Shown here piece by piece: positions 1-3,425 of a DNA stretch of 53,746 nucleotides. The notes beneath the pieces were generated by a model. The model made no database searches and had not been told where the DNA came from. It was given only the letters and a program-made list of their open reading frames with translations. Origin of the DNA: a bacterium (lineage in GTDB: Bacteria; Hydrothermota; Tepidihabitantia; B3-TA06); the NCBI GenBank assembly GCA_012517375.1, contig JAAYVC010000047.1, forward strand, positions 1-53,746, in the 5' to 3' direction. A program made the translations under genes and the position numbers. Positions within the stretch are counted from its first letter, which is position 1. The number at the start of each line of letters is the position of its first letter.

Positions 1-3000
1 GTTCGGATGGGAAGTTGAATGAGATATTGATAGATAAAGCGCAAGTAACCACCACGATAGGTAGATGAGATGCTCTTGTAGAACTGGGTAATGAGGCTTG
101 AATTGAGGATACCTAAAAGGTATTTATCATCAGTGGGTATGATATAGGTTGTATTTACTGAATAGTATTTCCCTTCACAATCAAAAGTAAAATTCCCTCG
201 TGGTGAGATGTCAGGGAGAATAATCTTCGGCTTATCGAATTCTTCGAAGTAATCAATGGAATCCTGGATTTCAAACCATTGGTATGAACCCGGTTTTCGA
301 CCTTTCCACTTCCCGTCCTTCTTTTCGTTCCATTCTTTAGGCTTCGGCTTGAGTTGGGTTTTGAAGGTTTCTAGATATCTCTCAATGGCTGGGTATTGTT
401 TGATATTGATTCCTCTTCTAGTGAAAATCAAGTATCGCTCGGTTGATAATGTTCCATATCTTTTAATATCTGAACCCGCTAAGAATGGTTTGATTAACAC
501 TTTGTTCTTAGGGTCTTCTTTGATTAATCGCTTGCGAGTTTCGGCATCAATGACAAATGCCTCGTTGAGGCCAGTCAGAACGCCTCTGTATATTTTACCA
601 TTGACATATTCGCCAAGTGGTACTCCTGTGGTTTTGAGTTTTGAAAGCACCATCTCATCTTTTGAATCGGATAGTGACCAGCCTTCATCACTCAAATTAG
701 ATTGATTAACCTTGTATTTTAACTTCTTTACATAACTGGACAAATCATGAAAATCAAGTCTTTCAATTTTGGCTGCATCAAATTCTTTGTTTGGTTTTGC
801 CTTTGTGACTTTTAATATGCACGGATATGTTGTCGCGCCTTCAAAGACTGGAAGATCGCCAAAATCGAGCAACTCCTCAATCCGCAATTTCTTCAACCAG
901 CGCCTGAGAGGCTTTCCATAGTTAGCACGTAGCCATTTGTTAGCAACAATAAAACTGAACACCCCTTCCCCCCTAAGTATGCTTATTCCCTTCTCGATGA
1001 AATAAGCATAAAGATCAGCAGTCCCTGCATACACTTGGTATTTCTTTGCAAAGTACTCCTTTTGTTCTCCAAGCCCTTCCTGCCGCACATACGGCGGATT
1101 GCCAATCACCGCGTCAAAGCCGCCCTGCGGGCTCGAGGCATCCTCGACAGAGATGCAGATGGAGTTGAGCACCGGCTCAAGCTTCTCGCGGGAGACAAGG
1201 GGTTTAACTCCGGGAGGGACAAGGGGTTTAAACCCCTTGTCTAATAAACGCCCCTTGTCTAATGAGTGCTTAAGGTGATTGTTCTGCACGTAGTTCATCA
1301 TATCAGTAAGCGCCTTATCGTCCTTTACAGGTTTGCGGTTGAATTTCTGCGCCCATACGTGCTGACCCTTTTCCCAGCCCTGCGCTTCCTGATAAGCCCT
1401 GGAACTATACCCCTTAATCTTGTGAACGAGTTCGTTAAGCTCCTCTTCAGATTCGGCGGCAATAATCATGTGAACGTGATCGGAAAGAACGTTCCAGGCC
1501 ACCACCGGCACGTCGTGGCGACGGCAGGCTTCAGCAATCTTGGCGGCTATCAATAACTGCTCCTCCGGCGTGAATATAAAAGGCTCTTTCAGAGAGACAA
1601 GGGGTTTAAACCCCGGAGGGACAAGGGGTTTAAACCCCTTGTCTAATAAACGCCCCTTGTCCAATAGGCGCTGCGATATGCGCGAGTTGTGGGTCACGAA
1701 AGTCACAAGCCAGAGCTGGCGGCTTTTTCCCCGCATAATCTCGCCGAAGCCGTGCTCCTTGCTGTACCAGTCGAAAGCGTTTATGCGGCGCGATTCTTTG
1801 GTATCGAACAAATTGCCTTGCTCGTTATAAAAGTCGGGACCTATAAGCGAGTTGCCGCAGCGGATATTGCGGCTCAGGTCGGGCAGCAGCTTCTTTAGCC
1901 TTGCATCTCGGGCAAAGTCCAAAAGGTACTGGTGCGCGCTGGCCTCGGTCTCGTCCTGCAGGAGCTTGAGGTAGAGCGAAAGCTGGCAGACCTCCACCGC
2001 CTGCGGGTCAATATCCACGCCGTAGATATTGTTCAATAGTATCTCGCGCTTTTTTGCGAGCGTAAGGTAAAGCTTGCCGCCGCGCTCCACGCAGTCGGCC
2101 TTCTGCGCCTTATCGGGATGGTCGTTGTAGTAGTGGCCGTGGTAGTCCAGCAACAAATCGTACACGGCCAAAAGAAACGAACCCGACCCGCAGGCAATGT
2201 CGGCAAACCGCATTTTTGCAATCTCGGCGGGGGTCTTCCCCTCTATGAGTTTTCCGACCGTGTTGGCAACAATGTAGCGGACGATGTAGGAGGGCGTGTA
2301 GTAGACGCCGCCCGCCTTGCGAACCTCGGGCTTTTCTTCAACCCTGGCGCGCTTATCGGTGGCAACGATGACCTTGCCAAGAAAGCGCTCGTATATTGAA
2401 CCGAGGATATGAATGGGGATTGAGTTGAAGTCGTAAGGCGAGTTGGCGTGCGCCAGGCTGTCGCGTATCTGCGAGAACGCCTTGTCGTCAACTTGAAAAT
2501 CCTTGCTGTCCAGGATGTCGTGATGTTTGTAGACGATGCCGTTGTAGATGCCGTCGAGCCTGCGGCTGGCCGCGATGAAGTCGTGCCACGCCGAACCTTT
2601 CGCGCCGAAGTTTTCAACGAGACGCGCAGGCTCAATGCCCTTGTCCTCGAGGAACCGCAGGAACACGAGCCGGTCAAGCGTGCGCTGTGCTAGCTCTGTC
2701 AGCGTCTCGCTTTCAAGTTCGGGATTATTATTCTTGAAGTTCTTTGCGAGCGACATGCGGTGTTCGTCGAGTTCGGCGAGGAACGAGGAGTCAATGCTCT
2801 GGTAGCCGCCTGAGAATAACCCGCGCTGGACTGCTTTCCCGCGAGGCTTGGGTAGTTCGGCCGCCCGCTTCTCGATGGAGCCTTGCTCGACCGCCTCGTG
2901 CGAGAAGAGCCAGTATATCTTTGCGAACTTTTCCTTGTCCGTGTATTCTGTATAGTAATACTTCTGCAATACCTGATTCGTAGCGGAGCCGATGTCGGGC

Positions 3001-3425
3001 TTGTAGCGGCAGTCGAGGACAAGGAACTGCTCGAAGTCGGTGAGAACGGCAAGCGGCGTGTCGGAGTTCCATGCGTAGCGGATGAGCTGGAAACAGCTCT
3101 CCGGCGTCGCGATGTCAACAGAAGGCTTCTTTGCCTCGACAAGGAACTTGACGTCGTGGTAGTTTGGCGCAAGGTAGAAGGCGTAATCGGCCCGGCGCTG
3201 CTTGCCTTCTGTCGTGACGCTGCGCTCGACCTTCACCTCCTGCTCGTAAGGGTTGGTCTGCACGTCATGATTAACGTCCCAGCCGAGCGCCATCCAGAAC
3301 TTATCTATGAAATCCTTGCGCGCCTGCGCCTCGGTGTACTTTGGGGATTTGTAGTGGTTCAGATTGCTTTCAAAAGCTTCAACAAGGGAAGCGACTTTCT
3401 GAAATGCAGCGTCAAACCCGCCCAT
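1..3425 (-). CDS. Type IIG restriction-methyltransferase with embedded Y1 (RAYT-like) transposase domain, 3' end outside window
   Basis: The reading frame is open from ATG at 3425 to the left edge (1141 codons, no stop in the window). Order of parts: N-terminal PD-(D/E)xK-like nuclease (D80, E97, K99 in VEAKKPS); adenine-methyltransferase motif I DIACGSGSF at about 409-417; motif IV NPPY at 776-779; then a TaqI/Eco57I-type specificity region running to the edge (YRGGYLRFIYQYL). The enzyme should methylate and cut DNA as one polypeptide. Between motifs I and IV, about residues 568-722, lies a foreign HUH/Y1 domain: VTFVTHNSR, DHVHMII (H650, H652), KIKGYSS, and Tyr712 in NYVQNN. It is interrupted and followed by two palindrome-encoded stretches containing DKGFKPLV. 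No ribosome binding site precedes the ATG; a promoter sits 5-7 nt upstream. Family calls are by motif recognition. Whether the restriction activity survives is unknown. Confidence 0.88.
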   Translation of the reverse strand, partial: MGGFDAAFQKVASLVEAFESNLNHYKSPKYTEAQARKDFIDKFWMALGWDVNHDVQTNPYEQEVKVERSVTTEGKQRRADYAFYLAPNYHDVKFLVEAKKPSVDIATPESCFQLIRYAWNSDTPLAVLTDFEQFLVLDCRYKPDIGSATNQVLQKYYYTEYTDKEKFAKIYWLFSHEAVEQGSIEKRAAELPKPRGKAVQRGLFSGGYQSIDSSFLAELDEHRMSLAKNFKNNNPELESETLTELAQRTLDRLVFLRFLEDKGIEPARLVENFGAKGSAWHDFIAASRRLDGIYNGIVYKHHDILDSKDFQVDDKAFSQIRDSLAHANSPYDFNSIPIHILGSIYERFLGKVIVATDKRARVEEKPEVRKAGGVYYTPSYIVRYIVANTVGKLIEGKTPAEIAKMRFADIACGSGSFLLAVYDLLLDYHGHYYNDHPDKAQKADCVERGGKLYLTLAKKREILLNNIYGVDIDPQAVEVCQLSLYLKLLQDETEASAHQYLLDFARDARLKKLLPDLSRNIRCGNSLIGPDFYNEQGNLFDTKESRRINAFDWYSKEHGFGEIMRGKSRQLWLVTFVTHNSRISQRLLDKGRLLDKGFKPLVPPGFKPLVSLKEPFIFTPEEQLLIAAKIAEACRRHDVPVVAWNVLSDHVHMIIAAESEEELNELVHKIKGYSSRAYQEAQGWEKGQHVWAQKFNRKPVKDDKALTDMMNYVQNNHLKHSLDKGRLLDKGFKPLVPPGVKPLVSREKLEPVLNSICISVEDASSPQGGFDAVIGNPPYVRQEGLGEQKEYFAKKYQVYAGTADLYAYFIEKGISILRGEGVFSFIVANKWLRANYGKPLRRWLKKLRIEELLDFGDLPVFEGATTYPCILKVTKAKPNKEFDAAKIERLDFHDLSSYVKKLKYKVNQSNLSDEGWSLSDSKDEMVLSKLKTTGVPLGEYVNGKIYRGVLTGLNEAFVIDAETRKRLIKEDPKNKVLIKPFLAGSDIKRYGTLSTERYLIFTRRGINIKQYPAIERYLETFKTQLKPKPKEWNEKKDGKWKGRKPGSYQWFEIQDSIDYFEEFDKPKIILPDISPRGNFTFDCEGKYYSVNTTYIIPTDDKYLLGILNSSLITQFYKSISSTYRGGYLRFIYQYLIQLPIR
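1192..1264. repeat. REP-like palindromic repeat, copy A
   Basis: Copy A holds a perfect 24-nt palindrome at 1218-1241 (half-site GACAAGGGGTTT) plus partial copies on both sides, followed by CTAATAAACG. It is a direct repeat of copy B, offset by exactly 402 nt (134 codons), so both copies are read in the same frame of the host gene and encode DKGRLLDKGFKPLV-type peptide. Copy A diverges from B at its left end (TTTAACTCC against TTTAAACCCC). Confidence 0.9.
1275..1740 (-). mobile_element. RAYT / IS200-like Y1 transposase domain fused in frame inside the methyltransferase
   Basis: This segment of the host frame encodes a Y1_Tnp-type domain: start LWLVTFVTHNSR, HUH motif DHVHM, then KGYSSRAY, WAQKFNRK, and the predicted nucleophile in MNYVQNNHLKH. 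It has no start or stop of its own and is translated as part of the restriction enzyme. Known RAYTs are stand-alone proteins associated with REP palindromes. Here the cognate-looking palindromes lie inside and immediately after the domain, also in frame. All three diagnostic features (two His, one Tyr, REP-like partner repeats) are intact, so this does not look like decayed sequence. Confidence 0.8.
1594..1666. repeat. REP-like palindromic repeat, copy B
   Basis: Copy B has the perfect 24-nt palindrome at 1620-1643, preceded by a further partial copy (ACAAGGGGTTTAAACCCC) and followed by CTAATAAACGCCCCTTGT. It lies inside the transposase domain, between VTHNSRISQRL and PFIFTPEEQ. Only one of the three frames through the palindrome contains a stop, so it is tolerated in frame. 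Confidence 0.9.

Follow-up and report, generated by a model that had tools for sequence, protein, structure and literature searches.

A RAYT-like Y1/HUH domain and its palindromes embedded in frame within a type IIG restriction-modification enzyme

The REP-associated tyrosine transposases (RAYTs, or TnpAREP; REP, repetitive extragenic palindrome) form, together with their palindromes, units called REPtrons, in which a Y1/HUH gene present in one copy per genome is flanked by palindromes that are also dispersed around the genome (PMC6006769, PMC8266576, PMC2817692). TnpAREP recognises single-stranded REP hairpins and then cuts nearby with its active tyrosine (PMC8266576). RAYTs have been described as vertically inherited (PMC8049555), and those of subclass 2.4 carry in-frame palindromes inside the transposase itself (PMC6006769). 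The present analysis concerns a RAYT-like domain that, with palindromes of its own, forms an in-frame part of a type IIG restriction-modification (R-M) enzyme encoded on a contig of 53,746 nucleotides (JAAYVC010000047.1, assembly GCA_012517375.1) from a bacterium of the GTDB lineage Hydrothermota; Tepidihabitantia; B3-TA06. The whole contig (C47) was analysed and is referred to as the window.

Like a REPtron, the insert has a Y1/HUH core, flanking and genome-dispersed palindromes and a single copy per genome, and the arrangement of a gene flanked by palindromes that also occur elsewhere in the genome is found in its carriers, except in one genome (G154) and with variant palindromes in another (G1550). 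Unlike the REPtron gene, which is free, it is embedded in frame in an R-M enzyme, its palindromes have no GT[AG]G foot and, in contrast to RAYTs, it apparently moves between host genes at one site. Moreover, one of its palindrome arrays lies between strand beta-1 and the first helix, whereas those of subclass 2.4 lie between HuH and Y. The transposases of the IS200/IS605 insertion sequences (ISDra2 and IS608 TnpA) share the fold, the HUH motif and the tyrosine. The insert differs from these in being embedded, in the absence of TnpB and of any recognised insertion sequence ends, and in occurring once in its own genome, where IS200/IS605 elements would have several near-identical copies.

Inteins and homing elements likewise sit in frame at one conserved site near the active centre of a DNA enzyme, move laterally and have a nuclease aboard, but the insert has no Hint domain or splicing signature and stays in the protein. 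Rickettsia palindromic elements are palindromic repeats translated in frame within genes, with no nuclease aboard, whereas here the palindromes are mostly intergenic and travel with a Y1 nuclease. The host families and their motifs are those of type IIG and type ISP enzymes (of the Eco57I and LlaGI/LlaBIII types), unlike which the methyltransferase or the recognition domain is split by the Y1 module. Literature searches, which were thin on subscription papers, returned no account of a RAYT or Y1/HUH domain within an R-M enzyme or of gene-to-gene movement of this kind, and none of this palindrome.

The insert and its palindrome arrays

The insert occupies positions 1125-1733 of the reverse strand (residues 565-767, 203 codons) and lies in frame between methyltransferase motifs III and IV. 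Uninserted relatives from the same phylum (L124, L125 and L131) read FGEIM-AL-GGFDAVIGNPPY across this point, where the window has FGEIM, the 203 codons and then GGFDAVIGNPPY; hence the limits of the insert, which replaces two codons of the empty genes. In relatives this place is taken either by the HUH/Tyr domain in full or by an empty loop two to a few codons long, and no target duplication was seen at the insert junctions. A sequence-only reading of the window had placed the insertion at 1192-1740; that it is in frame was correct, its extent was underestimated.

The Y1/HUH domain itself spans residues 568-720 (1266-1724, reverse strand) on the evidence of Pfam, alignment, an AlphaFold2 model and Foldseek, with a Pfam Y1_Tnp match at residues 620-716 (1.3e-14). 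A RAYT family is the best NCBIfam match for all 11 embedded members. The HUH motif, His650-Val-His652 (1470-1478, within DHVH at residues 649-652), is invariant in 11/11 copies, and the catalytic Tyr712 in the motif YVQNN (1290-1292) is kept in 10/10 rows that reach that position, as the earlier reading of intact catalytic residues had it. The AlphaFold2 model of the domain has a mean confidence (pLDDT) of 80, and its Foldseek matches are ISDra2 TnpA (E 3e-7), TnpAREP (4er8) and IS608. The full-length model has a predicted template-modelling score (pTM) of 0.50 and the placement of the Y1 domain relative to the methyltransferase is left uninterpreted; the palindrome-encoded segments, residues 580-614 and 717-739, are among its least confident parts and are predicted to be disordered, as expected of flexible linkers.

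Two 79-nt direct repeats, 1192-1270 and 1594-1672, lie 402 nt apart, are 91% identical and each contain the perfect 24-nt palindrome GACAAGGGGTTTAAACCCCTTGTC (at 1218-1241 and 1620-1643), in agreement with the first description of them. Shuffles of the window yield no such perfect palindromes, and both arrays fold much more strongly as single strands than shuffled versions of them do (z -8.1 and -5.6). The supposition that the repeats bracket the domain was mistaken. The Y1 domain begins upstream of the first array with VTFVTHNSR, which aligns as strand beta-1 with the other embedded domains, and the array at 1594-1672 splits the domain after VTFVTHNSRxSxR, between beta-1 and the first long helix; only the array at 1192-1270 is at the C-terminal end. 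Most relatives have a short loop at the former place, and in G063, a relative from WOR-3, peptides derived from the palindrome stand at both places that match the window arrays. Wherever the exact palindrome is translated within a host enzyme, the frame used is one of the two that lack a stop codon (giving KGxKPL or RGLSPL), as it must be if the host frames are to stay open. Short tandem peptide repeats (GKGQSE..., ESPLPKSE...) are expanded beside palindromes after the Y1 domain of L027 and on both sides of that of L048.

The host gene is a single reverse-strand frame (3-3425, 1141 residues) that starts with ATG and is open as far as the contig start, where its C-terminal end is cut off. PADLOC assigns it to the type IIG R-M enzymes (REase_MTase_IIG, 3.5e-166), and, as in that class, nuclease, N6-adenine methyltransferase (motif I plus NPPY) and recognition domain are on one chain. 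An HSDR_N domain of the PD-D/ExK nuclease type (Pfam; residues 30-145, 2991-3338), with the motif ADY...VEAKK seen by eye, is followed by the first part of the methyltransferase (1734-2411), which runs from motif I (DIACGSGSF) to motif III (CGNSLIG) and FDW...GEIM. After the insert come the second part (843-1124), with the motif IV NPPY at 1089-1100, and a TaqI_C target-recognition domain (Pfam; residues 979-1140, 6-491). The Pfam N6_Mtase/Eco57I match is accordingly broken in two, with profile positions 1-63 at 1761-2033 and 69-171 at 843-1145. The uninterrupted frame from motif I through the RAYT-like domain to NPPY and the specificity region, as first read, is confirmed. In a related Eco57I gene (L126, G116:C468) an unrelated insert of about 26 residues, NPSSSPSKGEDRGEGDNRQSEIGNREWV, is found at the same loop point, which suggests that the III-IV loop is a general hotspot of in-frame repeats. 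Since the loop is permissive to this degree, the fused chain probably keeps its R-M activity.

Hosts, distribution and dispersed palindromes

Among 147 genomes of the phylum that were searched, only G063, from candidate division WOR-3 and the same family as the window genome, also carries the module. A scan of 84,980 species genomes with two Y1 peptide patterns gave nine loci, from WOR-3, Chloroflexi, Pseudanabaena, Acidobacteria, Spirulinaceae, Aminicenantes, Myxococcales, Crocinitomicaceae and Anaerolineae, some of them cut at contig ends, and profile scans of four phyla (386, 400, 284 and 347 genomes) added just G274 and G1550. The Y1 lineage spans WOR-3, Chloroflexi, Acidobacteria, Aminicenantes, Myxococcales, Bacteroidota and Cyanobacteria, and is rare within every phylum searched. 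The founding events may be as few as two. The window's own genome has one copy, and each carrier has one strong embedded copy.

All 11 open-frame copies (the window and ten others) are embedded in R-M enzymes, a restriction that was not built into the search because the patterns select Y1 peptides and not hosts. Eight hosts are of the Eco57I type, with the insert at the III-IV loop (the window, G063, L027, L029, L031, L032, L033 and L049), whilst those of three cyanobacteria (L028, L030 and L048) are type ISP enzymes with the insert within their C-terminal domain; a type ISP relative encoded on a Geminocystis plasmid has nothing but an Asn-rich linker at the insert point. The G063 gene is without the nuclease part, the Chloroflexi gene in L027 is complete, and the L034 copy is frameshifted. 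No stand-alone homologue was found in the roughly 1,560 profile-searched genomes or among the nine pattern-scan loci, and no relatives of the Y1 domain were found in viral contigs, plasmids or phage records, nor among plasmids with a DNA query. Immediately downstream of the R-M gene of G063 is a stand-alone RAYT (L050 2004-2657, reverse strand). Palindromes of another REP class, with a double foot (GTAG...CTAC), occur near the G063 and Chloroflexi genes (L026 6450-6477; L027 2752-2779).

The palindrome CAAGGGGYTTAARCCCCTTG or a near variant stands beside the Y1 domain in 8/10 of the other open-frame carriers, with a diverged form in Chloroflexi and in G1550; beside the truncated L033 domain no palindrome was recognised. 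A genome scan for further copies, called for by the first reading, found them dispersed in most carriers (117, 74, 21, 17, 11, 6, 5, 4, 4 and 3 copies of CAAGGGGYTTAARCCCCTTG), with none in 32 sampled non-carrier genomes of the same phyla. Outside WOR-3, 8/10 carriers have 3-117 copies against 0/32 controls (Fisher 4e-7). This association is partly trivial because the R-M gene itself holds copies; when these are left out, as assigned by reading positions, it stands at 6/10 carriers against 0/32 controls (p 4e-5). Within WOR-3 the palindrome is confined to the window's own family. Its absence from the 32 controls makes a generic terminator unlikely.

The copies sampled are mostly intergenic, often within larger genome-specific repeats, and some are far from R-M genes. 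In G274 (L082-L101) and G148 (L112-L121) the palindrome lies inside longer intergenic repeats with conserved flanks, and some G274 copies have an additional 24-nt unit ending in half a palindrome. Solo in-frame palindromes are also found near the C-terminal ends of two other Eco57I R-M genes of G063 (L103 and L111). A further one, at 1501-1520 of Pseudanabaena L079 (G149:C12, frame 2-3019, reverse strand), falls in the corresponding III-IV loop, before GGFDAICGNPPF, of a methyltransferase of the DISARM type (PADLOC DrmMI); it may have been left behind when a module was excised, or a palindrome may have inserted there on its own. In the window's genome (G000) palindromes are in frame in related secreted-looking proteins (L020, L022 and L024, on contigs C84, C13 and C85); two of these are near-identical and at contig ends, which may reflect a recent duplication or an assembly break.

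Apparent movement of the module and competing explanations

In its methyltransferase, the G063 host shares 95% identity with one empty gene from its genus, 87% with a second empty gene and 58% with the window host. A clade of window and G063 is rejected by the host tree (approximately unbiased test, p 3e-7), in which several branches are poorly resolved and the Crocinitomicaceae and G1550 rows are very long; the contig of the closest host relative (L123) ends before the insert site. In the Y1 tree the two are sisters (100/98), and the embedded clade is separate from stand-alone RAYTs (100/99). The 95%-identical empty gene and the conflicting trees point to transfer of the insert from one R-M gene to another, at a single site. 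Read most simply, these sequences imply that the module was gained there at least twice within the window's bacterial family; an ancestral insert lost precisely and repeatedly is a less likely history. The notion of a one-off landing does not hold, with a Y1 lineage that crosses phyla and is found only in R-M enzymes.

The Y1 catalytic residues are conserved and, from codon comparison, the domain is under purifying selection. The ratio of non-synonymous to synonymous change (dN/dS) is 0.16 for the Acidobacteria/Aminicenantes pair, whose host parts give 0.06-0.08, and 0.19 for two cyanobacteria with high dS. Only two pairs could be used, because dS is saturated for window/G063 and Pseudanabaena/Spirulinaceae. 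This selection test had been proposed at the outset, and His and Tyr proved invariant wherever they were covered.

We favour, with a probability of about 60%, the view that the insert is a mobile REPtron which is translated without splicing and resides in permissive loops of single-chain R-M enzymes. It would be a RAYT-like Y1/HUH single-strand DNA nuclease with its own palindromes, carried in the host polypeptide with neither protein nor RNA spliced. By analogy with TnpAREP, the embedded domain would bind the palindrome as a single-stranded hairpin, and Tyr712 would cut beside it and transfer the ends, such that solo palindromes spread. The whole module may enter empty R-M genes by Y1 strand transfer, by recombination over the conserved flanks (FDW and GGFDxVIGNPPY), or by both. 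R-M genes would be good carriers, as they pass from species to species, contain permissive linkers and are not easily lost. Of the earlier choice between a harmless landing and a recruited domain, a mobile translated passenger is now the favoured form.

Several points weigh against a mobile REPtron. Cutting of the palindromes by the embedded domain is a prediction from what its relatives do (PMC8266576). The GT[AG]G foot of classical REPs is within 3 nt in just 3/82 palindrome copies, and identity with these GTAG-foot elements was rejected. G154 and G1550 carry the Y1 domain with 0 copies of the exact palindrome, G1550 having diverged palindromes, and five genomes of the window's family (G057-G061) have 2-7 copies and a negative Y1 search; these may be relics of a lost module, or the module may be missing from fragmented assemblies. 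Recombination alone would account for the trees equally well. Finally, confinement to R-M enzymes of two classes exceeds the expectation from blind insertion.

This last point, with the conserved catalytic residues, the purifying selection and the lack of free-standing relatives, is also what speaks for the main rival, in which the Y1/HUH domain has been recruited as a working part of the R-M system, for example to nick or covalently capture the single-stranded or hairpin DNA of invaders, the palindromes being its substrates, leftovers or regulatory sites. Such recruitment is nevertheless rather unlikely: close empty relatives in the same genus manage without the insert, the module is rare, the host loop tolerates unrelated inserts (L126), and genome-dispersed palindromes are typical of a mobile partner. 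A dedicated R-M/HUH partnership is a doubtful further proposal, whereby the Y1 domain would work on the palindromes within and near R-M genes so as to mobilise these genes or exchange their specificity domains, or else would supplement restriction by attacking single-stranded DNA; the insert is just before NPPY, beyond which recognition domains differ.

It is quite improbable that the Y1 domain and palindromes are inactive and moved solely by homologous recombination between R-M genes, like target-recognition domains. The conserved DNA flanks (FDW and GGFDAVIGNPPY), the known mosaicism of R-M genes and the junctions without target duplication are consistent with such passive exchange, but the selection on the Y1 domain and the palindrome copies distant from R-M genes are not, and such flanks cannot explain the occurrence at the unrelated type ISP site. 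An assembly chimera, pseudogene, intein or intron can be dismissed as highly improbable, for although the contig starts inside the gene and one related copy (L034) is frameshifted, independent genomes agree on the architecture with frames open across domain and host, and neither a Hint domain (Pfam search of the window protein) nor an Rfam intron family was matched.

Implications for RAYTs and restriction-modification enzymes

RAYTs are known as independent genes accompanied by extragenic palindromic repeats, and it is unclear what benefit they bring or how they spread. In the present case a complete RAYT-palindrome unit is translated within a defence enzyme, apparently mobile at one site and tracking a palindrome across phyla. 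Its recurrence, in the cases found, solely in defence enzymes suggests a class of mobile passenger not recognised before, one that stays in the translated protein instead of being spliced out. As a natural fusion, the unit makes RAYT function assayable via restriction. It also suggests that splicing is not needed for an element of the transposase type to persist within a reading frame.
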